The notes below the pieces were generated by a model. The model did not search any database and had not been told where the DNA came from. It saw only the letters and a list, made by a program, of their open reading frames with translations. DNA of 64,000 nucleotides from contig NZ_CP099994.1 in assembly GCF_024138125.1 (NCBI RefSeq), forward strand, positions 62,001-126,000, read 5' to 3'. A program made the position numbers and the translations under genes. Below, piece by piece: positions 5,254 to 18,230 of this stretch. The DNA is from Halorussus salilacus (GTDB taxonomy: Archaea; Halobacteriota; Halobacteria; Halobacteriales; Haladaptataceae). Numbering within the stretch: the stretch's first letter is position 1; each line of letters opens with the position of its first letter.

Positions 5254-5694
5254 ATGACCCGACTGGTACCCCTCCGAGACGCCGACGCCGACCTCGACTG
5301 GATCCGGTCGCTACTGGAGCGCGAGGGACTCCCGACTCGGGACCTCGGCGAGAAGGCCGACCGCTTCTTCGTCGGCGTCGCCGACGAAGAAGCGGTCGGG
5401 GTCGGCGCGGTCGAGGTCCACGGCGACTCGGGACTCCTCCGGTCGGTCGCGGTCGCGGAGGCCCACCGCGGAGAGGGCGTGGGGACGAGCATCTGCGCCG
5501 GACTGGAGGCGCGCGCGGCCGAGACGGGCGTCGAGGAGCTGTACCTGCTGACCACGACCGCATCGGACTTCTTCGACGCGCTCGGGTACGGGGAGGTCCC
5601 GCGAGAGTCGGCCCCGTCCGCGATCCGCGAGACGACCGAGTTCGCGGAGCTGTGTCCGGACTCGGCGGTCTGCATGCGGAAGGTCATCGAGTAG
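5254..5694 (+). CDS. GNAT acetyltransferase, ArsN2-like
   Basis: A 146-residue single-domain GNAT protein. The acetyl-CoA pyrophosphate loop is seen as AHRGEGVGTS. The tail has the ArsN2-type signature LLTTTASDFFDALGYGEVPRE, then TTEFAELCPDSAVCMRKV. ArsN2 proteins are linked to arsenic resistance by acetylating organoarsenicals, but no ars genes are nearby, so the substrate is inferred from similarity only. A TATA-like ctatatc at 5223-5229 lies 25-31 nt upstream of the ATG. The gene contains a near-perfect 39-nt palindrome (5358-5396), which encodes the strand-turn-strand DRFFVGVADEEAV. Confidence 0.75.
   Translation: MTRLVPLRDADADLDWIRSLLEREGLPTRDLGEKADRFFVGVADEEAVGVGAVEVHGDSGLLRSVAVAEAHRGEGVGTSICAGLEARAAETGVEELYLLTTTASDFFDALGYGEVPRESAPSAIRETTEFAELCPDSAVCMRKVIE
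5358..5396. repeat. Intragenic 19-bp inverted repeat with one-base centre
   Basis: The arms gaccgcttcttcgtcggcg and its exact complement flank a single t inside the ArsN2-like gene. At 39 nt this is far longer than expected by chance. It could be a transcript hairpin or a by-product of the encoded strand-turn-strand. Confidence 0.6.
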
Positions 5695-5704
5695 TTCGAC
5701 CGGG

Positions 5705-5737
5705 GACGAATCCGAGCGCGGGGCGCTCGGATTCGTC
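5705..5737 (+). terminator. Terminator-like hairpin after the ArsN2-like gene
   Basis: Arms 5705-5719 (gacgaatccgagcgc) and 5723-5737 are exact complements around ggg, starting 11 nt after the stop codon at 5694. No strong T-run follows. Confidence 0.45.
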
Positions 5738-5780
5738 TCCGTCCGGGGATTCATGGTGTGGCGACGCGTACGCCCAGAGC

Positions 5781-7250
5781 ATGACCGGCGACCGCGACGA
5801 GGACCGCGGGGAACTGCTGGACGCGATGGACTGGCTCCTGACTCGCTTCGAGGGCGACGATTCGGTCGCCTACGCCGAGGTGGCTGGCGTCTACCGCGAG
5901 AAGACCGACGCGGTGATCACCGACGACGGCCCCCGGAACGTCACCGCGTTCCCCGAGACGGGCGTGTGGTGTCGGGTCTTCGCCGACGGCGCGGCCGACT
6001 ACCGGTACACCACGAGCCTCAACGAGGAGAGCCTGGAGGACGTGGCGGCGCGAGCGATTCGGGGCGGGGAGTTCCTCGCGCAGGACGACCCCGCGCGCTT
6101 CGACGCCTACACCACCCACCGGGCGGTCCACGGCGGGTGGGCCGACGAGCCGATCCACTCGGTGGACGCCGAGTCGAAGGTCGAGGCGGTCGGCGAGGCC
6201 CTCGCCGCGACCGACGACCTCGCGCTCGACCGCGTCTGGGTCAACTACGCCGACGAACACGCGGAGGTGACCCTCGGGACGACGACCGGTAGCACCGTCA
6301 AGACGACGCTCGACCGCGCGAGCGTTACCTTCTCGCTCACTCCGGAAGAGGGCCCGAAGGTGAGCCGCCACGCCGGGTCGACCCGGGGAGCGGCGTTCCT
6401 CGACCGACTCCCGGCGGTCTTCGAGGACGCCGCCGCCGACGTTCGTTCGCTGTCGGCCGCGGAGCCGACCGACTCGCCCACCGGCGAGACGACCGTCGCG
6501 CTGAGTCCCGAGGCGGCCGGACAGCTGTTCCACCACGCCTCCCACCAGCTCGAGGCCGACGCGCGATACATGGGGATGAGTCCCCACTCGGTCGGCGACC
6601 GAATCGGTCCCGACGGCCTCGACATCGAGGACACCGTCCACGCGGGGTCGTGGGACGCGCTGGCGTTCGACGCCGAGGTCCGACCCGCGACGCCGGTCCA
6701 GTTGGTCGAGAGCGGGGAGGTCGCTCGACTGCTCCACAACACCGCCAGCGCGGCCGAGGACGAGACGTATCCGGCGGGCAACGCGGTCCCGAGCCTCGGC
6801 CTCGACCAGCCGCCACGAATCCACGCCCGCCATCTAGAGGTCGCTCCCGGCGACGCCACTCCCGGGGAACTCCGGGAGAGCGCCGACGTGTACGTCGAGC
6901 GGTTCGGCACGCCGCGGCTCCGCGACGAGTTCGAGCGCGCCCAGCGCGAGGGCGAGATGCCCCCGAGCGTGCTCTACGCGAGGGACGTGGCCGAGAAGAT
7001 GCCCGAGGGCGAGGACCGGTGGTGCGCCGACCTGCCGGTCGCGGAGGCCTACCGCCTCGACGGCGAGGAGCGCGCCGGACGCGTCGAGGGCGTGACCCTC
7101 GACTACGGCCCCGAGACGCTACGGAACGTCGCCCGACTCGGCGCGGTGCGCGCGACGGTGACCGGCGTCTGCGAGAAGCACAAGTCCCGGCTCCCGTACG
7201 CGGTGACGGCTCCCGGACTGCGACTGCGCGCGGCGTTGCGCGAGAAGTAG
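5781..7250 (+). CDS. TldD/PmbA family protein with degenerate metal site
   Basis: A 489-residue member of the TldD/PmbA (TldD/TldE) family, which in bacteria forms a heterodimeric metalloprotease processing small peptides such as microcin B17. The family layout is clear: the N-terminal domain has VAGVYREKTDAV and FPETGVWCRVFADG, and the C-terminal beta domain has TTVALSPEAAGQLF. The active-site helix that should read HEAxGH instead reads HHASH at residues 251-255: the catalytic Glu is His and one residue is missing. The usual downstream metal-binding Cys segment is also not evident. It therefore resembles the non-catalytic TldE partner or an inactive paralogue. No second family member lies in the window. 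Confidence 0.75.
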   Translation: MTGDRDEDRGELLDAMDWLLTRFEGDDSVAYAEVAGVYREKTDAVITDDGPRNVTAFPETGVWCRVFADGAADYRYTTSLNEESLEDVAARAIRGGEFLAQDDPARFDAYTTHRAVHGGWADEPIHSVDAESKVEAVGEALAATDDLALDRVWVNYADEHAEVTLGTTTGSTVKTTLDRASVTFSLTPEEGPKVSRHAGSTRGAAFLDRLPAVFEDAAADVRSLSAAEPTDSPTGETTVALSPEAAGQLFHHASHQLEADARYMGMSPHSVGDRIGPDGLDIEDTVHAGSWDALAFDAEVRPATPVQLVESGEVARLLHNTASAAEDETYPAGNAVPSLGLDQPPRIHARHLEVAPGDATPGELRESADVYVERFGTPRLRDEFERAQREGEMPPSVLYARDVAEKMPEGEDRWCADLPVAEAYRLDGEERAGRVEGVTLDYGPETLRNVARLGAVRATVTGVCEKHKSRLPYAVTAPGLRLRAALREK

Positions 7251-7289
7251 CGCGGGAGCGCGGAAGAGACGGGAGGGGGAACGCTGGCC

Positions 7290-8408
7290 TCAGTCGTCGG
7301 CCGGTGCCGACTCGGTGCCGTCGTCGGTGTCGGCCGCCGCGGGGGTCCCCTCCAGCTGCGCGTAGGGGTCGAAGCCCTGCTCGCTCTCGTAGAGGTGGCA
7401 GGCGACCGCCTGCTGGCCGTCGATGTCCGCCTTGCGTTCGAGCGGCGGGACCACCTTATCGCAGACCTCGCCGATGTAGTCGGGACACCGGTCCTTGAAC
7501 CGACAGCCGGTCGGGATGTCGATGACGTCGCCGACCTCGCCCTGCAGTTCGACGCGCTCGCGGCCCACGTCGGGGTCGGGCACCGGGACCGCGTTGATGA
7601 GCGACTGGGTGTAGGGATGCTGGGGGTCCTCGATGATCTGGTCGGTCGGCCCCTTCTCGACGATCTTGCCCATGTACATGATGGCGAGGCGGTCGCACAT
7701 GTGGCGCAACAGCGAGAGGTCGTGGCTGATGTAGACGACCGAGAGCCCGAACTCCTCGGTCATCCGCTCCAGCAACGAGAGGACGCCTGCCCGGAGGCTC
7801 ACGTCGAGCATCGACACCGGCTCGTCGGCCACGATGAAGTCGGGGTCGAGCACCAGCGCCCGCGCGATGGCGACCCGCTGGCGCTGGCCGCCCGACAGCT
7901 CGTGGGGGTACTGGTCGAAGTAGTGTTCGGCGGGTTCGAGCTCGGCGAACTCCAGCGCGCGCCGGACCCGCGCGGTCTCGTTGCGGATGTCGTGGATGCG
8001 TAGCGGTTCGGCGACGGTGTCGTACACCGTCATCCGGGGGTTGAGGCTCTCGAAGGGGTCCTGGAAGATCATCTGGGCGTTCTGGCGGAACTCCTTGAGC
8101 TCGGCGTCGCTGGCGTCCGAGAGCCGCTTGTCGTCGTAGTAGATGTCGCCGTCGGTCGGCTCGTGGAGCTTCACGAGCGACATCCCGGTGGTCGTCTTCC
8201 CGCAGCCGGACTCGCCCGCGAGCCCGAGCGTCTCGCCCTCCCGGAGTTCGAAGCTCACGCCGTCGACGGCGTGGACGTAGTCGGCCCCGCCCCCGGAGAC
8301 CGCGTTCATCATGCTCGCGATCCAGCCCTCGTCGACCTTGAAGTGCTTCTTGAGGTCCTCGACGCGCAGGAGCACGTCCTCGTCGGCGTAGTCGTCGGTG
8401 TAGCTCAT
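7290..8408 (-). CDS. Dipeptide/oligopeptide ABC transporter ATP-binding protein (DppF/OppF type)
   Basis: A 372-residue ATPase and the last gene of a five-gene peptide/nickel-type importer. Walker A is GESGCGKTT, the ABC signature is LSGGQRQR, and Walker B precedes [10 protein letters not shown]. The C-terminal oligopeptide-transporter extension has the Cys-rich [17 protein letters not shown] motif that in some relatives carries an Fe-S cluster. It begins directly after the stop codon of the preceding ATPase gene, indicating translational coupling. A 25-residue insert ([19 protein letters not shown]) follows the first strand. Confidence 0.9.
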
Positions 8409-9461
8409 TCAGTCATCACCTGCCTCCTCGATGACCGTCTGCTGGGCGGCGACCGTCTGGTTCCACGTCTCGGGGTCGTCGGCGTAGGGCCGCAACTCCT
8501 CGTCTATCTCGTCGGCGTAGTGGCAGTACGACCGGAGCCCGTTCTCGTGGTGGGGTTCGGGGAACTCCTCGGCGCACCTCTCGGTCGCCATCGGACACCG
8601 GTCGCGGAACCGACAGCCAGACGGCGGGTCGACCAGTTCCGGCGGGTAGCCCGCGATGGACAGCAGGTCCTGATCGGACAGCCGGATGTTGGGGAACGCC
8701 CGCTTCAGCCCGATAGTGTAGGGGTGGTACGGCCGCTCGAATATCTCCTCGACCGGCCCCTCCTCGGCGATCTGCCCGGCGTACATCACGATGACGCGGT
8801 CGCACGTCTCGGCGACGACGCTCACGTCGTGGGTGATGACCAGCATCGAGGAGTTGATCTCGTCTTGAATCTGGCTGATGCGCTTGAGAATCTGGTCCTG
8901 CATGATGACGTCGAGCGCCGTCGTGGGCTCGTCGGCCAGCACCAGGGAGGGGTCGAGCGCGAGCGCCATCGCTATCATCGCGCGCTGGCGCATCCCGCCA
9001 GAGAACTGGTGGGGGTAGTCGTCGGCCCGGTCGGGGTCGAGTCCCACGAGTTCGAACATCTCGGTCACGATTCGCTCGGACTCGGTGCGGCCGGTTCCCG
9101 GTCGGTGGGTCTCGATGGCCTCGACGATCTGCTCGCGGATGGTGTAGACCGGGTCGAGGCTGTTCATCGCCGACTGGGCGATCATCGATATCTCCTCCCA
9201 CTTGAGGCGTCGGCGCTCGGGGTCGGACATCGCGGTGAGGTCCTCGCCCTTGAAATCTATCTTCCCGCCGTTGACGTAGCCCTCGTCGGGCAGGATGCCG
9301 ATGATGGCCTTCGCGAGGGTGGTCTTTCCGCAACCGGACTCGCCGACGATGCCGAGGTTCTCGCCCTCTTCGAGTTCGAACGAGACCCCGTCGACCGCCT
9401 GAGCGGGCCCGCCCTCGGTTTCGTAGTACACTTCGAGGTCTTCGACTTCTAGTAGACTCAT
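8409..9461 (-). CDS. Dipeptide/oligopeptide ABC transporter ATP-binding protein (DppD/OppD type)
   Basis: A 350-residue ATPase partner of the DppF-type protein. It has Walker [10 protein letters not shown], signature [15 protein letters not shown], Walker B with [10 protein letters not shown], a switch His in [10 protein letters not shown], and the C-terminal [14 protein letters not shown] motif. Its start overlaps the stop of the permease gene upstream by 4 bp (ATGA), and its stop is flush with the next start. The two ATPases form the cytoplasmic motor for the adjacent permeases. Confidence 0.92.
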
Positions 9462-10435
9462 TGTAATTTGGGGTTAGTGATTTCCTCGTAGCCGCGGCCG
9501 ATGAGGAAGCCGCTGATCACGAGCAGGCCGATGCAGACGCCCGGCGGCACGAACCACCACCACGCGCCGAACTGGAGCGCCGAGTACGCCCGCGAGGCCT
9601 GAAGCATCGTCCCCCACGACACGGTGTTGGGGTCGCCCAGCCCGATGAACGAGACGCCCGCCTCGGTGAGGATGGCCCACGCGATGGCGAACGACCCGTA
9701 GAGGAACGACATCGGGAGCACGTTCGGCGCGAGGTGTCTGGAGATGATGTGCCAGTCGCTCGCGCCCGAGACCTTCGCGGCCTTGACGAACGGTCGCTCG
9801 CGCAACGAGAGCGCCTGCGACCGGATGACGCGCGCGGTCGAGCGCCACTGGAGGAGGATGAGCGCGAGGATGATGTTCCAGAGGCTCGGCCCGAGCACCG
9901 CGACCAGCACGATGACCGTCGGGAGCATGGGCATCCCGTACAGGAAGTCGACGATGCGCATCAGGAAGTCGTCGACCGTCCCGCCGTAGTAGCCCGCGAC
10001 CAGACCGACCATGGTGCCGATGCCAGCGGTGAACACCGCCGCGATGAGGCCGACCATCAGTGCGGCGCGGGTGCCGTACACGAGCTGGCTGAAGATGTCG
10101 AACCCCTCGGCCGTCGTTCCGAGGATGTAGCCGCTGTCTGCGCCCAGTATCGCCGGGTCGGCCCACTTCTCGATGAGCAGTTCGTCGGAGGTCTGGTACT
10201 GGCGGGTCAGCGGCCGGTGGGTCGCGATGTAGGGTGCGAAGATGGCGACGACCACGAAGAACGTCACCGTCAGCATCGACAGCTTCACCGACAGCTCGTC
10301 GGTCAGCATCCCCCAGTGTTCGCCGAGCGTCTCGCGCCACAGTCTGAACTGCCGTTGCCACTTGTTGACCTCCTCGCGCGAGGTGCTGTCGTCGAGGTCC
10401 GTGAATATCGAACTCGTGCTTTCTTCTTGTGCCAT
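9458..10435 (-). CDS. Dipeptide/oligopeptide ABC transporter permease (DppC/OppC type)
   Basis: A 325-residue inner permease. A long cytoplasmic N-terminus (residues 1-50) precedes the first membrane segment (LSMLTVTFFVVVAIFAPYI) and the OppC N-terminal motif. The BPD_transp_1 core follows, with the ATPase-coupling EAA-like loop near SGASDWHIISRHLAPNVLP. The C-terminal segment is VCIGLLVISGFLIGRGYEEI. It lies 4 nt after the DppB-type gene and overlaps the ATPase gene, so the operon is tightly coupled. Confidence 0.9.
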   Translation of the reverse strand: MAQEESTSSIFTDLDDSTSREEVNKWQRQFRLWRETLGEHWGMLTDELSVKLSMLTVTFFVVVAIFAPYIATHRPLTRQYQTSDELLIEKWADPAILGADSGYILGTTAEGFDIFSQLVYGTRAALMVGLIAAVFTAGIGTMVGLVAGYYGGTVDDFLMRIVDFLYGMPMLPTVIVLVAVLGPSLWNIILALILLQWRSTARVIRSQALSLRERPFVKAAKVSGASDWHIISRHLAPNVLPMSFLYGSFAIAWAILTEAGVSFIGLGDPNTVSWGTMLQASRAYSALQFGAWWWFVPPGVCIGLLVISGFLIGRGYEEITNPKLQ

Positions 10436-10439
10436 GGTT

Positions 10440-11417
10440 CTAGTCGTAAGTCACCCGCGGGTCGAGGTAGCCGTACGCCAAGTCGGCGATGAAGTTCAGG
10501 ATGATGATGGTCGCGGCCAGCACCATGAACGTCCCCTGCGCGACGGGGAAGTCACGGCGTAGCACCGCGTTCACCATCTCCCGACCGATTCCGGGCCACG
10601 CGAACACCGTCTCGATCAGGACGCTCCCGCCGACCGCGTAGCCGAGCGCGATGGCCGCCGCGGTCACGATGGGCAACAGGGCGTTTCGCGCGGCGTGTTT
10701 GAACATGATGGTCCGCTCCTTGAGCCCCTTCGCGCGACACACGTCGATGAAGTCCTCCGAGAGGACTTCGAGCATGCTGGAGCGCATGATGAGCAACGGA
10801 TACCCCATGTAGTAGTACGCCAGCACCGCCGCCGGGGCGACGAGGTGGCGAAGGAAGTCCACCGACGAAATCTTGTCCCAGAAGCCCGAGTGGCCCTGCC
10901 CGGCGCTGGTCATGCCGCTCATCGGGATGACGTCGAGGCCCGCACCGAAGATCCACAGCACCATCAGGCCGACCCAGAAGGTGGGGACGCTGCGAGCCAT
11001 CAGCGCGGTGATGACCGCGCTACGCTCGAACCGCGAGCCCCGATACCAGCCCGAGAGCACGCCCAGCGTGATGCCCGCGATGTACGCGATGACGAACGCG
11101 GTGAGCATCAGCACGAGCGTGTTCGGGAGGTAGGTCCAGATGACCTGCTTGACGGGCTCGTTGGAGTGGAACGACTGGCCGAAGTCCAGTACGGCCGCGT
11201 TCTGCAGGAACTTGATGTACTGGATGTGCAACGGCTGATTCAGGCCGTAGCTCGCGATTATCTGCTGGCGCGCCTCAGCGGTCATCTGCGAGGAGACGAC
11301 GAACGACGTCGGGTCGCCGGGCATCAGCCTGAACAACATGAACAGGACCGTGCCCACGGCCCAGAACGTTACAACTAATTGAAGTGACCGTCTAATTACA
11401 AAGCTGGCCTTTCCCAT
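10440..11417 (-). CDS. Dipeptide/oligopeptide ABC transporter permease (DppB/OppB type)
   Basis: A 325-residue permease with the DppB/OppB N-terminal signature. The first membrane segment is followed by RLMPGDPTSFVV and a helical extracytoplasmic loop (MTAEARQQIIASYGLNQP). Five more membrane segments follow, with the coupling loop near AKGLKERTIMFKHAARNALLP. It is separated by 73 nt from the binding-protein gene upstream and by 4 nt from DppC. Confidence 0.9.
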   Translation of the reverse strand: MGKASFVIRRSLQLVVTFWAVGTVLFMLFRLMPGDPTSFVVSSQMTAEARQQIIASYGLNQPLHIQYIKFLQNAAVLDFGQSFHSNEPVKQVIWTYLPNTLVLMLTAFVIAYIAGITLGVLSGWYRGSRFERSAVITALMARSVPTFWVGLMVLWIFGAGLDVIPMSGMTSAGQGHSGFWDKISSVDFLRHLVAPAAVLAYYYMGYPLLIMRSSMLEVLSEDFIDVCRAKGLKERTIMFKHAARNALLPIVTAAAIALGYAVGGSVLIETVFAWPGIGREMVNAVLRRDFPVAQGTFMVLAATIIILNFIADLAYGYLDPRVTYD

Positions 11418-11490: not shown

Positions 11491-13209
11491 TTAACTTTCT
11501 GGCGTCTGAAGCAAATCTTCGTCATTCCAGGTGTAGCCAGCCTCTTCGAGACGGCTCCGGGCGGCGTCCATGCTCTCCTCGTACTCGGTGACGTCCTCGG
11601 TGTGGAGCGGCCCGTACGCGGGCGAGACGACGTTGAATCCCGGCTCGGGGAATCCGAACAGGATCTGGTCGACGATGGGCGTCCGCGGCAGGGTCTCGAC
11701 CATCGCCTTCCGGAGCGCCACGTCGTCGAGGCCCTCCTCGCGCTCGTTCGGGGTGAAGTGCCAGAACGAGGTCGCGGGGTTGGACTCGACACCGATCTGT
11801 TCGTTGTCCTGATTCTCGTTGAGCGAGCGGTCGATGCGGCCGAACGGCTCGTAGTTGAGTTCGCCGTTGTTGAGCAGCTCCCACACCGTCGAGGCCTCGG
11901 GGATGATGCGCCAGTAGCGCTCCTCGAAGTCGACCGACGCGAAGTGGTCGTCGAACCGGGTCATCCCGAACTCGCTGCCCTCCTCCCAGTAATCGAACTG
12001 GAGCGGACCGCTGCCGACGGGTTCGTCGATGGTCTGCTCGCTCGGGTCCTCCCGGTCTGCCCACATGTGCTCGGGGATGATCGGAATCTGGGTGGCGACG
12101 ATCTCGTTGAACGGCCCCAGCGGGTCGGACATGTTGATGCGGACCGTCTCGTCGTCGACGGCTTCCGCGCCCTCGATGTACTCGGTCTGGGTGGAGTAGT
12201 AGGGCACCTCGTTCTCGGTGATGTAGTTGAACGTGAACGCGACGTCCTCGGTGGTGAGGTCCTCGCCGTCGTGCCACGAGTGGTCGGTCCGGATGGTGTA
12301 CTCCATCGTGGTCTCGTCGACGCGCTCGAAGTCGGTGGCGAGGCTCACGTCCGTGTTGAACTCGGCGTTGTTGTCGAGTCGCAGGAGCGTGTCGTACATC
12401 ACCGTGAACTGGTAGACGTGCTTGTTCTCGCCGTTGTGACCGAGCGGGTTCATGGTCGACAGCGACTCGGGCCAGTACCCCTTCAGGACGGACTCGTCGC
12501 CCTGCATCTCGAGGTTGATCATCGTCCAGTAGGAGTTGTACCCAAGCGCCAGTCCGGGCTGCCAGTTGCCGGTCTGCTCGTTGTTGTACACGACGAGCAT
12601 CGGCATGTGGGTGATCGGCATCATCGGCACGTCGTCCATGAGGATCTGCTGGAGCTCGTGGACCTGCTCGATACGGGTATCGGCGTCGGGTTCGGCCATG
12701 TAGCCGTCGATGAGTTCGTCGACGTCGGAGTTCTCGTAGCCCGCGTAGTTGCCCTCGCCCTCGCCGGTGTTCGAGGAATGGAGCATGTTGTTGAACTCCA
12801 GCACCGGGTCGGGGGTGAAGAAGGTGTGCCACGTCGAGAAGCTGTAGTCGTACTCCTGGTCGACGCGGTTGAACAGGGTACCCCATTCGAGCACCTCGAC
12901 GTCGACGTCCAGTCCGAGGTCGCCGAGTTGCCGCGCGTTGAGGTTTATCGCGTCGTGGCGCGGCGGGTTGTAGCTCTGGGCGTTGTTGACGTAGGTGTAG
13001 GTCGGCAGCGCTTCGCCGTCGCCGCCCGATTCGGTCTCGGTGTCCGTACCGTCACCGCCGCCTTCGGTGGTTTCGGCCTCGGTCGTCGTTGTTTCGTCCT
13101 GACTGCCGCCGGTACACCCGGCAAGCGCAGTCAGACCGACGACACCGCTCGTTGCACCGGCTTTCGCCAAGAAGTCACGCCGCTTCGGGTCGATCTGCCT
13201 ATCCGGCAT
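11491..13209 (-). CDS. Tat-exported lipoprotein, SBP_bac_5 (peptide/nickel-type) binding protein, apparently circularly permuted
   Basis: This 572-residue extracytoplasmic ligand-binding protein heads the importer operon. The start at 13209 gives a Tat signal (KRRDFLAKAG, residues 9-17), a hydrophobic stretch, and a lipobox Cys at 32 (LTALAGC). A Thr/Glu/Gly-rich linker runs to about residue 67. The segment order is unusual. Residues 68-219 match what is normally the C-terminal part of SBP_bac_5 (LGLDVDVEVLEWGTLFNRV, FTPDPVLEFNNML, DDVPMMPITHMP). Residues about 240-572 match the normal N-terminal and middle parts (GYWPESLSTMNPL, HSWHDGEDLTTEDVAFTFNY) and end at the AGY motif (RSRLEEAGYTW), where the segment seen at residue 68 would normally continue. 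All expected segments are present once. Confidence 0.88.
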   Translation of the reverse strand: MPDRQIDPKRRDFLAKAGATSGVVGLTALAGCTGGSQDETTTTEAETTEGGGDGTDTETESGGDGEALPTYTYVNNAQSYNPPRHDAINLNARQLGDLGLDVDVEVLEWGTLFNRVDQEYDYSFSTWHTFFTPDPVLEFNNMLHSSNTGEGEGNYAGYENSDVDELIDGYMAEPDADTRIEQVHELQQILMDDVPMMPITHMPMLVVYNNEQTGNWQPGLALGYNSYWTMINLEMQGDESVLKGYWPESLSTMNPLGHNGENKHVYQFTVMYDTLLRLDNNAEFNTDVSLATDFERVDETTMEYTIRTDHSWHDGEDLTTEDVAFTFNYITENEVPYYSTQTEYIEGAEAVDDETVRINMSDPLGPFNEIVATQIPIIPEHMWADREDPSEQTIDEPVGSGPLQFDYWEEGSEFGMTRFDDHFASVDFEERYWRIIPEASTVWELLNNGELNYEPFGRIDRSLNENQDNEQIGVESNPATSFWHFTPNEREEGLDDVALRKAMVETLPRTPIVDQILFGFPEPGFNVVSPAYGPLHTEDVTEYEESMDAARSRLEEAGYTWNDEDLLQTPES

Positions 13210-13593: not shown

Positions 13594-14751
13594 TCAGCCA
13601 AGCCGACGTTCGAGGACGCCCCGATACGTCTCGGCCGTCGCCACCAGCTCGTCGAGCGCGACCGACTCGTCGACGGTGTGGGCGTCGTCCTCGATGCTTC
13701 CGGGCCCGAACACGAGCGTCGGGATGCCAGCCCGCGTGAGGAACCGCGCGTCGGTCCCGGCGTTGAAGCCGGTGACCTCGGCGTCGATTCCGACCTCGCG
13801 GGCGGCGTCGAGCGTCTCCCGCACGATGGCGGCGTCGCGGTCGACCTCCGACCCCGCGCTGAAGAGCCAGCGCTCGAACTCCACGTCTACGGGCTCCCCG
13901 TCGAGCGTGACGCCTTCGAGGGCGTCTGCGAGGCGGTCGTCGAAGACCGCGGGGTCGCGGTCGATGTCCGGGAGCGTCCGCCAGAAGACGGTCGCGGTCG
14001 CCTCGTCGGGAATGACGTTCGGCGCGAGCCCGCCGTCTATCTCGGTGATGCTGACCGAGGGGCCGGGTTCGAGCAAGTCGTGCTCTTGGGTCCGGACCTC
14101 GTCGTCGAGGGCCTCGACCCGGTCGAGGGCCTTCCGGAGGCCGTCGACGGCGTTGACCGCGCGGTCGGGCCGCCCGGAGTGGCCGCTCTCGCCCCGGACG
14201 GTGAGTTCGTAGCCCACGACGCCGTACTCCGCGATGGCGACCTGACACCGACTGGGTTCGCCGATGATGGCGGCGTCGGCCTCGACGCGCTCGGCGAGCG
14301 CCTCGGTGCCCGACCCGCCGCGCTCCTCGTCGACGGTGAACCCCAGAATCACCTCGCCGGGGTCGTCGTGGGACGCGAGGAACGCCTCGGCCGCGAGGAG
14401 TTTCGCGGCGAGCGCGCCCTTCATGTCGGCGGTCCCCCTGCCGACGAGTCGGTCGCCCTCCCGCCGGAGTTCGAAGGGGTCGGCCGTCCAGTCGTCGGGG
14501 TTCGCGGGCACCACGTCCATGTGGCCCGTGAGGAGCAGGCTCCCCTTCTCGGGGTCGCCAGCGCGTGCGACGACGTTCGGGCGACCCGGGTGGACCTCCC
14601 GGACCCCCACGTCGAAGTCGACGGGCGAGTCGTCGAGGCGCTCGACGAGGTACTCCGCGAGGACGCCCTCGTCGCCCGGGGGGTTGACCGTCTCCCGGGC
14701 GACGAGTTCGGCGAGCAGGTCGGCGAGGCCGTCGGCGTCGATGTCGGTCAT
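13594..14751 (-). CDS. M20 family metallohydrolase (ArgE/DapE/CPG2 type)
   Basis: A 385-residue M20 enzyme, expected to hydrolyse an N-acyl amino acid or small peptide with a dinuclear zinc site. The motifs are LLLTGHMDVVP (His, Asp), GRGTADMKGA (bridging Asp), FTVDEERGG (catalytic and metal Glu), IIGEPS (Asp/Glu position) and DDAHTVDES (last His). The dimerisation lid domain lies between about residues 165 and 280. The start at 14751 (MTDIDADGLADLL) is preferred over an upstream ATG adding 14 untypical residues. ArgE, DapE and carboxypeptidase activities cannot be told apart here. The gene sits beside a peptide importer, suggesting use of imported peptides. Confidence 0.87.
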   Translation of the reverse strand: MTDIDADGLADLLAELVARETVNPPGDEGVLAEYLVERLDDSPVDFDVGVREVHPGRPNVVARAGDPEKGSLLLTGHMDVVPANPDDWTADPFELRREGDRLVGRGTADMKGALAAKLLAAEAFLASHDDPGEVILGFTVDEERGGSGTEALAERVEADAAIIGEPSRCQVAIAEYGVVGYELTVRGESGHSGRPDRAVNAVDGLRKALDRVEALDDEVRTQEHDLLEPGPSVSITEIDGGLAPNVIPDEATATVFWRTLPDIDRDPAVFDDRLADALEGVTLDGEPVDVEFERWLFSAGSEVDRDAAIVRETLDAAREVGIDAEVTGFNAGTDARFLTRAGIPTLVFGPGSIEDDAHTVDESVALDELVATAETYRGVLERRLG

Positions 14752-14801
14752 TCGGCGGGGATAGGGAAGGCCCTGACTTAGCCGTTCGGGCACCGGAGAG
14801 G

Positions 14802-15211: not shown

Positions 15212-16744
15212 ATGACTGACGAGACGGTACTCGTGGGGGAGTTCTCCCACGAGACGAACACCTTCGCCGTGCGGGCGACCGACCGCGCGGCGTTCGCCGA
15301 CCGCCGCGAGTACGTCGGCGAGGAGCTGGTCGCCGGACTCCGGGGGACCAACACCCCGGTCGGGGGCATCCTCGACGCCGCCGAGTCGGCGGGTCTGGAC
15401 CTCGTTCCGAGCGTCGCCGCGGCCGCCACGCCGGGCGGGCTCGTCACCGAGGACGCCTACGACTTCTACGCGGGCGAGATACTCTCGGCGGTCCGTGAGC
15501 GCGGCGATGACCTCGACGGCGTCGCGCTCTCGCTACACGGCGCGATGGTCCCGGAGGGCCGGACCGACGGGGAGGGCCCCCTGCTGTCGGCGGTCCGGGA
15601 GGCGGTCGGTCCCGACGTGCCGGTGGTCGCGACCCTCGACCTCCACGGCAACGTCACCGACGAGATGTGCGCAGCCGCCGACGCGCTGGTCGCGTTCGAG
15701 ACCTACCCCCACGTCGACATGGCCGAGACGGGGCGGCGCGCGACCCGGCTCCTCGTCGAGATGCTGCGAGAGGGTCGCGAGTACTCGATGCACGTCGAGC
15801 GCCCGCCGATGCTCCCGCTCGGCCCCCTCCAGAACACTCGCGGGGGGCCGATGGCCGACATCATGGCGACCGCGCGCCGGATCGAGGACCGCGACGGCGT
15901 GGCGAAGGTCAACGTCCTCCCGGGCTTCCACAAGGCCGACGTGCCCGCGATGGGCACCTCGGTCGTCGCGGTCGCCGACGACGAGTCGGCCGGAGTGCAC
16001 GCCGCCCGTGACCTCGCGGCCGAACTCTGGGAGATGCGCGAGGCGTTCGTCGGGGAGTTCCCCGACCCGATGGACGCGGTGGGTCGGGCGCTGCGGGCCG
16101 CCGACGCGAACCCCCCGGAGGCCGGACCCGTCGTGCTGGCCGACAGCGGCGACAACCCCGGCGGGGGCGGCACCGGCGACGAGACCGCGGTCCTGCGCGA
16201 ACTCATCGACCGCGGGGCGACGAACGCGGGCCTCGCGCTCGTCCACGACCCCGAGGCGGTCGCGGCCTGCGTCGAGGCGGGCGTCGGCGAGCGCGTCACC
16301 GTCACGCTCGGCGGGAAGGCCGAGGGGAGCTTCACGCCGCCCATCTGCGAGGCCGACGGCTACGTGGCGGCGATAACCGACGGCGAGTTCCGGAACGCGG
16401 GACCGATGGCGACCGGGACCGAGAACCACCTCGGCCGGACGGTCCTGTTCCGCTGCGGCGAGGGCGACGGCGTGCGCGTCATCCTGACCGAGAAGCGCAT
16501 CCAGCCCCTCGACGCCGAGATATGGCGGCACGTCGGCGTCCAGCCCGAGCGCCTCGACGTCGTCGCGGTCAAGAGCAACAACCACTACCGGGCCGCCTAC
16601 GAGCCGATGGCGAGCGAGGTCATCACGGTCAACAGCCCCGGCGTGGCGGCCTTCGACCCGAACCAGTACGACTACGACCGAATCCGGCGACCCAGGTTCC
16701 CCGTCGACGAGATGGCGGCCGACGACTACCCCGACTGGTACTGA
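15212..16744 (+). CDS. M81 family metallohydrolase (MlrC-like)
   Basis: A 510-residue MlrC/M81 protein. The N-terminal half is the DUF1485-type catalytic domain with the zinc motifs GEFSHETNTF, LSLHGAM (His) and ATLDLHGNVTD (Asp, His), plus the YPHVDMAETG motif. The C-terminal MlrC domain contains DSGDNPGGGGTGDET and later SNNHYRA. MlrC is known from microcystin and cyclic-peptide breakdown; archaeal members have no established substrate but are assumed to cleave amide bonds. It is monocistronic, with a TATA-like element about 28 nt upstream and a strong hairpin directly after the stop. It fits the peptide/amide catabolic neighbourhood. Confidence 0.88.
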   Translation: MTDETVLVGEFSHETNTFAVRATDRAAFADRREYVGEELVAGLRGTNTPVGGILDAAESAGLDLVPSVAAAATPGGLVTEDAYDFYAGEILSAVRERGDDLDGVALSLHGAMVPEGRTDGEGPLLSAVREAVGPDVPVVATLDLHGNVTDEMCAAADALVAFETYPHVDMAETGRRATRLLVEMLREGREYSMHVERPPMLPLGPLQNTRGGPMADIMATARRIEDRDGVAKVNVLPGFHKADVPAMGTSVVAVADDESAGVHAARDLAAELWEMREAFVGEFPDPMDAVGRALRAADANPPEAGPVVLADSGDNPGGGGTGDETAVLRELIDRGATNAGLALVHDPEAVAACVEAGVGERVTVTLGGKAEGSFTPPICEADGYVAAITDGEFRNAGPMATGTENHLGRTVLFRCGEGDGVRVILTEKRIQPLDAEIWRHVGVQPERLDVVAVKSNNHYRAAYEPMASEVITVNSPGVAAFDPNQYDYDRIRRPRFPVDEMAADDYPDWY

Positions 16745-16909: not shown

Positions 16910-18126
16910 ATGTCGGCCACCGGCGGGGACGGCGGCGAGCGACTGTTCGGCGGCTACGCGGGTCGGCTCCTCGTGGCCTGCTCGCTCGGGTGGGCGGCCC
17001 TGAGCGTCGGCCGGTTCGCGCTCGCGCCGATGCTCCCGGCCATCATCGAGGACCTCGCCATCACCCGGTTCGAGGCCGGTGTCGCGCTCTCGGCGCTGTG
17101 GGGTTTCTACGCGCTCCTGCAGTACCCCGGCGGTCGGCTCTCGGACGAACTCTCGCGCAAGACCCTGCTCATCGCGGGTCTCGGCCTGCTCGTCGCGGGG
17201 TTCGGGCTGTTCGCGGTGACGAGCGACTACGTCGCCTTCGTGGTCGCGGCGTCGGTCGTCGGCGTCGGCGCGGGGGTGTTCTCGACGCCCACCAAGGCGC
17301 TGATAACCGACCTGTTCGTCGTCCGGCGCGGGCAGGCGTTCGGCGTCCAGACCGCCGCGAGCGACGCGGGCGGCGCGGTCGCGAGCAGCGTCGCGGTCGC
17401 GGCGCTCGCGGTCGCGACCTGGCAGACCGCCTTCCTGCCCGTCGTCGCGCTGGTCGGACTCGCGCTCGTCATGCTCCACCTCTGGAGTCGCGAGCCCTAC
17501 TCGGTCGCGCGGGTGGACATGGACCTCCTCGACACGGGGCGTCGGCTGGTCGCCGACCCCGAGATACGGAACCTCACGCTGGTCTACTCGCTGTTCTCGT
17601 TCGCGTGGCAGGGCGCGACCGGCTTCCTCCCCGCCTTCCTGCAGGCCGACAAGGGGTTCTCGGCGGGGCTTGCGAGCGGCGCGTTCGCGGCGCTGTTCGC
17701 GGTCGGCATCGTCGTCAAGCCGGTCGCGGGCGCGCTGGGCGACCGGGCGACCCACGCGACGGTCGCCACGGCCGCGCTGGTGGTCGGGACGGTCGCGCTC
17801 GGGGCATCATCGCGCTCTCGGCCGCGCCGCTGGTGGTCGTCGCGGTGGTCGCGTTCTCGGCGGGGTTCATGTCGTTCCCGCCCGTGATGCAGACGTTCCT
17901 GATGGGGGTGTTCCCCGATTCGAGCATGGGCGGTGACATGGGCGCGACCCGGACCGTCTACCTCGGCGTGGGGGCGGTCGGTCCGGCCTACGTGGGGTAC
18001 GTCGCCGAGGTCGCCAGCTACACCGCGGCGTTCGTCGGACTGGCGGTCTGCCTGCTGGCGGCCGCCGGAATCCTGGTCGCGATGGTGTCGCCGTGGCGAG
18101 TCGACCTCCGGGCGGTCGCTCGGTGA
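16910..18126 (+). pseudogene. MFS transporter broken by a single-base frameshift
   Basis: The first about 298 codons encode a major-facilitator protein: TM1 SLGWAALSVGRFALAPMLP, the A-loop motif GGRLSDELSRK after TM2, then further TMs to ALVVGTVALGA. The frame then breaks at about 17803-17806 (plus strand ctcggggcatc). The next frame continues with the last three TMs (IIALSAAPLVVVAVVAFSAG, then PPVMQTFLMGVFPDSSMGG) and stops at 18126. Adding one G to the GGGG run restores about 405 codons with 12 TMs. The substrate is unknown; such haloarchaeal MFS proteins resemble oxalate/nitrate-type or sugar-acid carriers. Sequencing error is the alternative to true inactivation. Confidence 0.8.
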
Positions 18127-18230
18127 GAGGCAGAGGGAGAGGGACAGGGACAGGCAGAGGGAGAGGGACAGGGACAGGGAGAGGGACAGGGAGAGGGACA
18201 GGGAGAGGGACAGGGAGAAGCAGAGGAAAG
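18125..18230. repeat. Polypurine GGGACA/GGGAGA tandem repeat
   Basis: About 106 nt built from hexamers ggga[c/g]a with a few ggcaga variants. The 12-mer gggagagggaca recurs several times in phase. It starts at the MFS stop codon and precedes the CoA-transferase gene. It is G-rich on one strand, with GGG triplets every 6 nt, so triplex or quadruplex formation and slippage-prone length variation are possible. Confidence 0.8.

Follow-up and report, generated by a model that had tools for sequence, protein, structure and literature searches.

A circularly permuted SBP_bac_5 lipoprotein in a DppBCDF-type operon of Halorussus salilacus, and its permuted relatives

Substrate-binding proteins (SBPs) of the SBP_bac_5 family (PF00496, Cluster C) usually match the family profile in one co-linear run, a trait that is common among them rather than strictly defining. 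A gene on the minus strand of the Halorussus salilacus genome, located within a 64-kb window (the whole stretch of DNA that was analysed), encodes a 572-residue protein that gives no such run, raising the question of whether its segments have exchanged places, and whether it is alone in this. An initial annotation, made from the sequence, had read it as a circularly permuted and probably functional binding protein, and had taken it for a single oddity.

Block order and predicted fold

The open reading frame, its strand, its coordinates and its lipoprotein signal are as first annotated. The gene and its parts, with the evidence for each, are:

11491..13209, minus strand: circularly permuted SBP_bac_5 lipoprotein, 572 amino acids (open reading frame, Pfam, AppA and canonical-only HMMs)
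13114..13209, minus strand: residues 1-32, twin-arginine signal (RR at 10-11) with lipobox LAGC and Cys32 (motif reading; matching layout in haloarchaeal relatives)
13009..13113, minus strand: residues 33-67, acidic low-complexity linker (sequence reading)
12502..13008, minus strand: residues 68-236, C-terminal block of ordinary SBP_bac_5 proteins (canonical-only C-half HMM; PF00496 287-367; AppA 363-484)
12472..12561, minus strand: residues 217-246, junction between the former C-terminus and the former N-terminus (alignment of relatives; predicted model)
11533..12498, minus strand: residues 238-559, N-terminal and middle block of ordinary SBP_bac_5 proteins, ending at the AGY helix (canonical-only N-half HMM; PF00496 6-285)
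11494..11532, minus strand: residues 560-572, short conserved tail after AGY, corresponding to the cut hairpin (kept in relatives)

PF00496 matches the protein significantly (183 bits; cut-off 32.4), aligning in two stretches whose order is reversed: profile positions 6-285 correspond to residues 290-566, and positions 287-367 to residues 56-149. The protein accordingly counts as a permuted member of the family. The sequence of AppA (1xoc) aligns in the same manner, its residues 52-346 with residues 271-561 and its residues 363-484 with residues 74-197. To avoid circularity, HMMs were also built solely from canonical-order proteins, 26 in all, including Escherichia coli DppA, OppA, NikA and GsiB, in which the blocks score in normal order. 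On the 572-residue protein, the N-half model matches residues 238-559 (205 bits) and the C-half model residues 80-216 (86 bits); against 1000 shuffled copies of the protein, these models gave no match at E 10.

Each block occurs once, which argues for permutation, as first annotated, rather than duplication or fusion. The residue assignments made at that time stand in substance and shift at their edges. Residues 68-219 are indeed the normal C-terminal portion, in a block that runs on to about residue 236; residues ~240-572 hold the normal N-terminal and middle portions, but the protein does not stop exactly at the AGY motif, as had been stated; it continues for 15 residues past it in a tail that is conserved in relatives.

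The alternative of two fused, unrelated domains, or of a duplication, in which the C-terminal block resembles the family by chance, is suggested by the modest Pfam match of that block taken alone (27 bits), but is very improbable and was rejected by the profile comparisons: in addition to the C-half score and the unmatched shuffles, hhalign assigns the N-terminal block of the permuted family to the canonical C-half with 99.8% probability and to the canonical N-half with 0.6%. The single closed fold predicted for the chain also speaks against it. A divergent but co-linear member of SBP_bac_5 was likewise rejected, since the profile alignment proposed initially yields no co-linear end-to-end match. 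At the level of sequence, we regard it as confirmed that the lipoprotein carries an SBP_bac_5 fold in circularly permuted order, the sole reading that fits both the profiles and the order conserved in relatives.

An AlphaFold2 model, computed from an alignment of 65 permuted sequences, is a single fold (pLDDT 92, pTM 0.89), predicted to close into the two lobes of Cluster C, a question that the initial annotation had left to structure prediction. The first block, folded alone and without an alignment, reached a pLDDT of 37, and that model was set aside. Residues 170-507 of the model superpose on AppA 17-358 by VIA-align (Z 23.7, rmsd 4.3, 331 residues); the superposition is limited to this range, leaving residues 1-169 unaligned, because sequential aligners cannot score a rotated order. 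Such aligners found no full-length co-linear structure match in the PDB. Among the PDB sequence matches listed, none starts in the first block, the best stretches beginning at profile position 166 or later, and none of the solved-structure matches listed has a permuted chain order.

The chain is cut in the hairpin just past the AGY helix, near profile position 285 of PF00496; in the permuted members tested, the profile breaks without exception within positions 283-296. Permuted members start just before the strand that follows this hairpin in ordinary proteins, and nearly all of them end shortly after the AGY helix, a few with an added tail. All subclades of permuted SBPs are cut in this same hairpin.

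Distribution of the permuted order

Full-length relatives co-linear with the 572-residue protein were recovered from a search of 145 haloarchaeal genomes, at 75 to ~30% identity. Relatives in other genera keep the order at 68-77% identity, and those across phyla at ~30%, complete genomes and plasmids included. Of 141 haloarchaeal genomes, at least 88 (106 minus 18 whose best junction-profile match is weaker) contain a match to a profile confined to the junction with an E-value no higher than 2.6e-56, and the junction is crossed by all 150 of the junction-profile matches listed. This homologue survey, which had been suggested with the initial annotation, upholds the permutation and places the supposed oddity in a large permuted family. 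An assembly or rearrangement artefact limited to the H. salilacus genome, named at the outset as grounds for abandoning the permutation, is refuted by the recurrence of the order in other genera and phyla, across many independent assemblies, complete genomes and plasmids, and retains a negligible probability.

H. salilacus itself encodes three further permuted paralogues (L004, L007 and L008), together with canonical ones, of which L001, L005 and L009 show both blocks in N-C order and L002 and L003 do so by the canonical profiles. Across the collected loci, the canonical-only HMMs gave C-N order in 111 ORFs and N-C order in 28, some of these ORFs being overlapping fetches of one gene; the assignments agree fully with the first classification. 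In the species-genome collection, the permuted order occurs in Pseudomonadota, Bacillota, Spirochaetota, Deinococcota, Thermodesulfobacteriota and Nitrososphaeria, bacterial prevalence being sampled unevenly. The scan was ranked by likeness to a haloarchaeal query; because of this ranking, and because bacteria that are not halophiles also match (Neorhizobium, Microvirga, Roseomonas, Ketogulonicigenium), we claim no enrichment in halophiles among bacteria.

Few transport proteins have been studied as much as Cluster C SBPs. Their permuted branch, present in a majority of the haloarchaeal genomes sampled and in several bacterial phyla, nevertheless has no label of its own in Pfam, in NCBIfam models or in public annotation; plasmid records name its members merely ‘ABC transporter substrate-binding protein’.

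Two canonical-order haloarchaeal SBPs (L121:1063-2808 and L113:5722-7497) reach unusually high scores against the profiles of the permuted family (267-268 bits for N, 114-119 bits for C), and are possibly unpermuted sisters or a reversal. In a Spirochaetales MAG (L072:2-928 and 5671-7305), a canonical SBP operon lies immediately upstream of a permuted one.

Operon and likely function

The genes that surround the SBP are:

10440..11417, minus strand: DppB-type permease (PF00528, PF19300)
9458..10435, minus strand: DppC-type permease (PF00528)
8409..9461, minus strand: DppD-type ATPase with oligo_HPY (PF00005, PF08352)
7290..8408, minus strand: DppF-type ATPase with oligo_HPY (PF00005, PF08352)
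13594..14793, minus strand: M20 peptidase, upstream and on the same strand as the SBP (PF01546, PF07687)
15212..16744, plus strand: M81/MlrC metallopeptidase, divergent (PF07364, PF07171)

The operon is intact, as first described, with the SBP followed by two permeases and two oligo_HPY ATPases; this DppABCDF-type gene set keeps the order SBP-B-C-D-F in relatives, and permease and ATPase genes adjoin the SBP in bacterial permuted relatives. The type of peptidase beside the SBP varies, close relatives in Halogeometricum, Haladaptatus and a Halobacteriales MAG having a divergent M28 peptidase instead. Elsewhere in the window, a short tandem array at 18125-18226, of period 6 or 12 (GAGAGG / AGGGAGAGGGAC; 17 copies at period 6), sits between MFS and CoA-transferase genes.

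Its place at the head of a DppBCDF-type operon, next to peptidase genes, makes it most likely that the gene encodes an ordinary peptide-importer SBP, and from the M20, M81 and M28 neighbours we infer peptide import as its best assignment. In the alignment, Asp134 occupies the column of the Asp that anchors the amino group of the peptide ligand in DppA. Against this assignment, other ligands of SBP_bac_5 proteins include nickel, heme, opines and sugars, the adjacent peptidase type differs among relatives, and the site in the column of DppA Arg355 is not conserved. The initial view that the protein is probably functional gains support from the 70-77% identity kept in other genera, the intact operon and the confident closed fold of the model.

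A receptor for chemotaxis or sensing, in place of an importer subunit, would resemble a sister haloarchaeal clade of permuted SBPs that stands alone, but is improbable for a gene that heads a complete BCDF operon, as do those of its close relatives. We consider it very probable, in sum, that the protein serves a DppBCDF-type peptide importer as its substrate-binding lipoprotein, with the usual chain order circularly permuted. The chain is opened at a surface hairpin in the C-terminal lobe, and a short linker connects the original C-terminus with the original N-terminus. Export would probably proceed by the Tat pathway, followed by lipidation at Cys32, so that the acidic linker, now entering the C-terminal lobe, would tether the protein to the membrane; the chain is predicted to fold into an ordinary two-lobed clam-shell, in whose cleft a ligand, probably a peptide, would be bound and then passed to the permease pair.

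The sister clade comprises L007 and L008 (H. salilacus, G000:C1:1273729 and 1248304), as well as L090, L093-L095, L100, L101, L105-L109, L112, L114, L115, L119 and L120. No Opp/Dpp-type permease gene was found in their flanks of ~6 kb, where L095 has only a distant ATPase match; these SBPs are orphan binding proteins, perhaps acting as receptors.

Origin of the permutation and relation to known systems

A tandem duplication that lost its outer ends may have given rise to the permuted gene. In a tree of rearranged sequences, the 572-residue protein and the bacterial members belong to a main permuted clade (support 99/96), outside which fall a second haloarchaeal group and two divergent archaeal proteins, L127 and L103 (the latter from Nitrososphaeria). 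Forcing all permuted proteins into a single clade was rejected (p 0.003); forcing the main clade and the second group together was not (p 0.17), in a test whose groups were named after the tree had been seen. These comparisons suggest more than one origin of the permutation, always at the same loop, and we leave it at a suggestion because of this late choice of groups and the long branches in the tree. The outlying L127:1733-3496 encodes a PGF-CTERM C-terminal anchor, and L103:4262-6193 a long tail with a hydrophobic segment as C-terminal membrane anchor.

As to the cause of the order (and not the identity of the protein), selection for moving the membrane anchor from the N-terminal to the C-terminal lobe would suit the haloarchaeal members, which are Tat lipoproteins, and the two divergent archaeal members with C-terminal anchors; tethering has also been suggested to favour permutation in the Cluster B protein TpMglB-2 (PMC4990184). 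By motif reading, however, members in Halomonas, Natronospirillum, rhodobacteral and rhizobial species have cleavable signals without a lipobox and are probably free in the periplasm. With many Gram-negative members thus lacking a lipobox, anchoring is not a general explanation, and we think such selection unlikely. A broader proposal, which we advance tentatively and with somewhat less than even confidence, is that circular permutation of Cluster C SBPs has happened repeatedly, in archaea and in bacteria, always in the same C-terminal-lobe hairpin, which would make this loop a natural hotspot for permutation and the order an adaptation instead of a frozen accident. The family is a natural experiment in what chain order and the position of the membrane anchor mean for a binding protein's folding, export and docking, and it offers biosensor designers a scaffold already permuted by nature.

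The 572-residue protein shares with AppA, DppA, OppA and NikA (PF00496, Cluster C) homology over the whole chain, a two-lobed fold in the model and BCDF operon partners; unlike them, it has its C-terminal block first and its termini in a hairpin of the C-terminal lobe. In the open-access literature searched, a permuted Cluster C SBP is nowhere described; other literature may contain one. The nearest precedent is TpMglB-2 (Tp0684; ‘Type Ic / Cluster Bc’), an ABC substrate-binding lipoprotein with a natural circular permutation that many species share (PMC4990184). Both are natural circular permutations of an ABC SBP, but TpMglB-2 has the Cluster B sugar-binding fold, belongs to another branch of the superfamily, is cut elsewhere and occurs mainly in treponemes and Gram-positive bacteria, whereas the 572-residue protein matches SBP_bac_5 and its PDB sequence relatives are of Cluster C, not of the Type I/Cluster B sugar-binding fold. 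The permuted branch could be named ‘Cluster Cc’, on the model of ‘Cluster Bc’.
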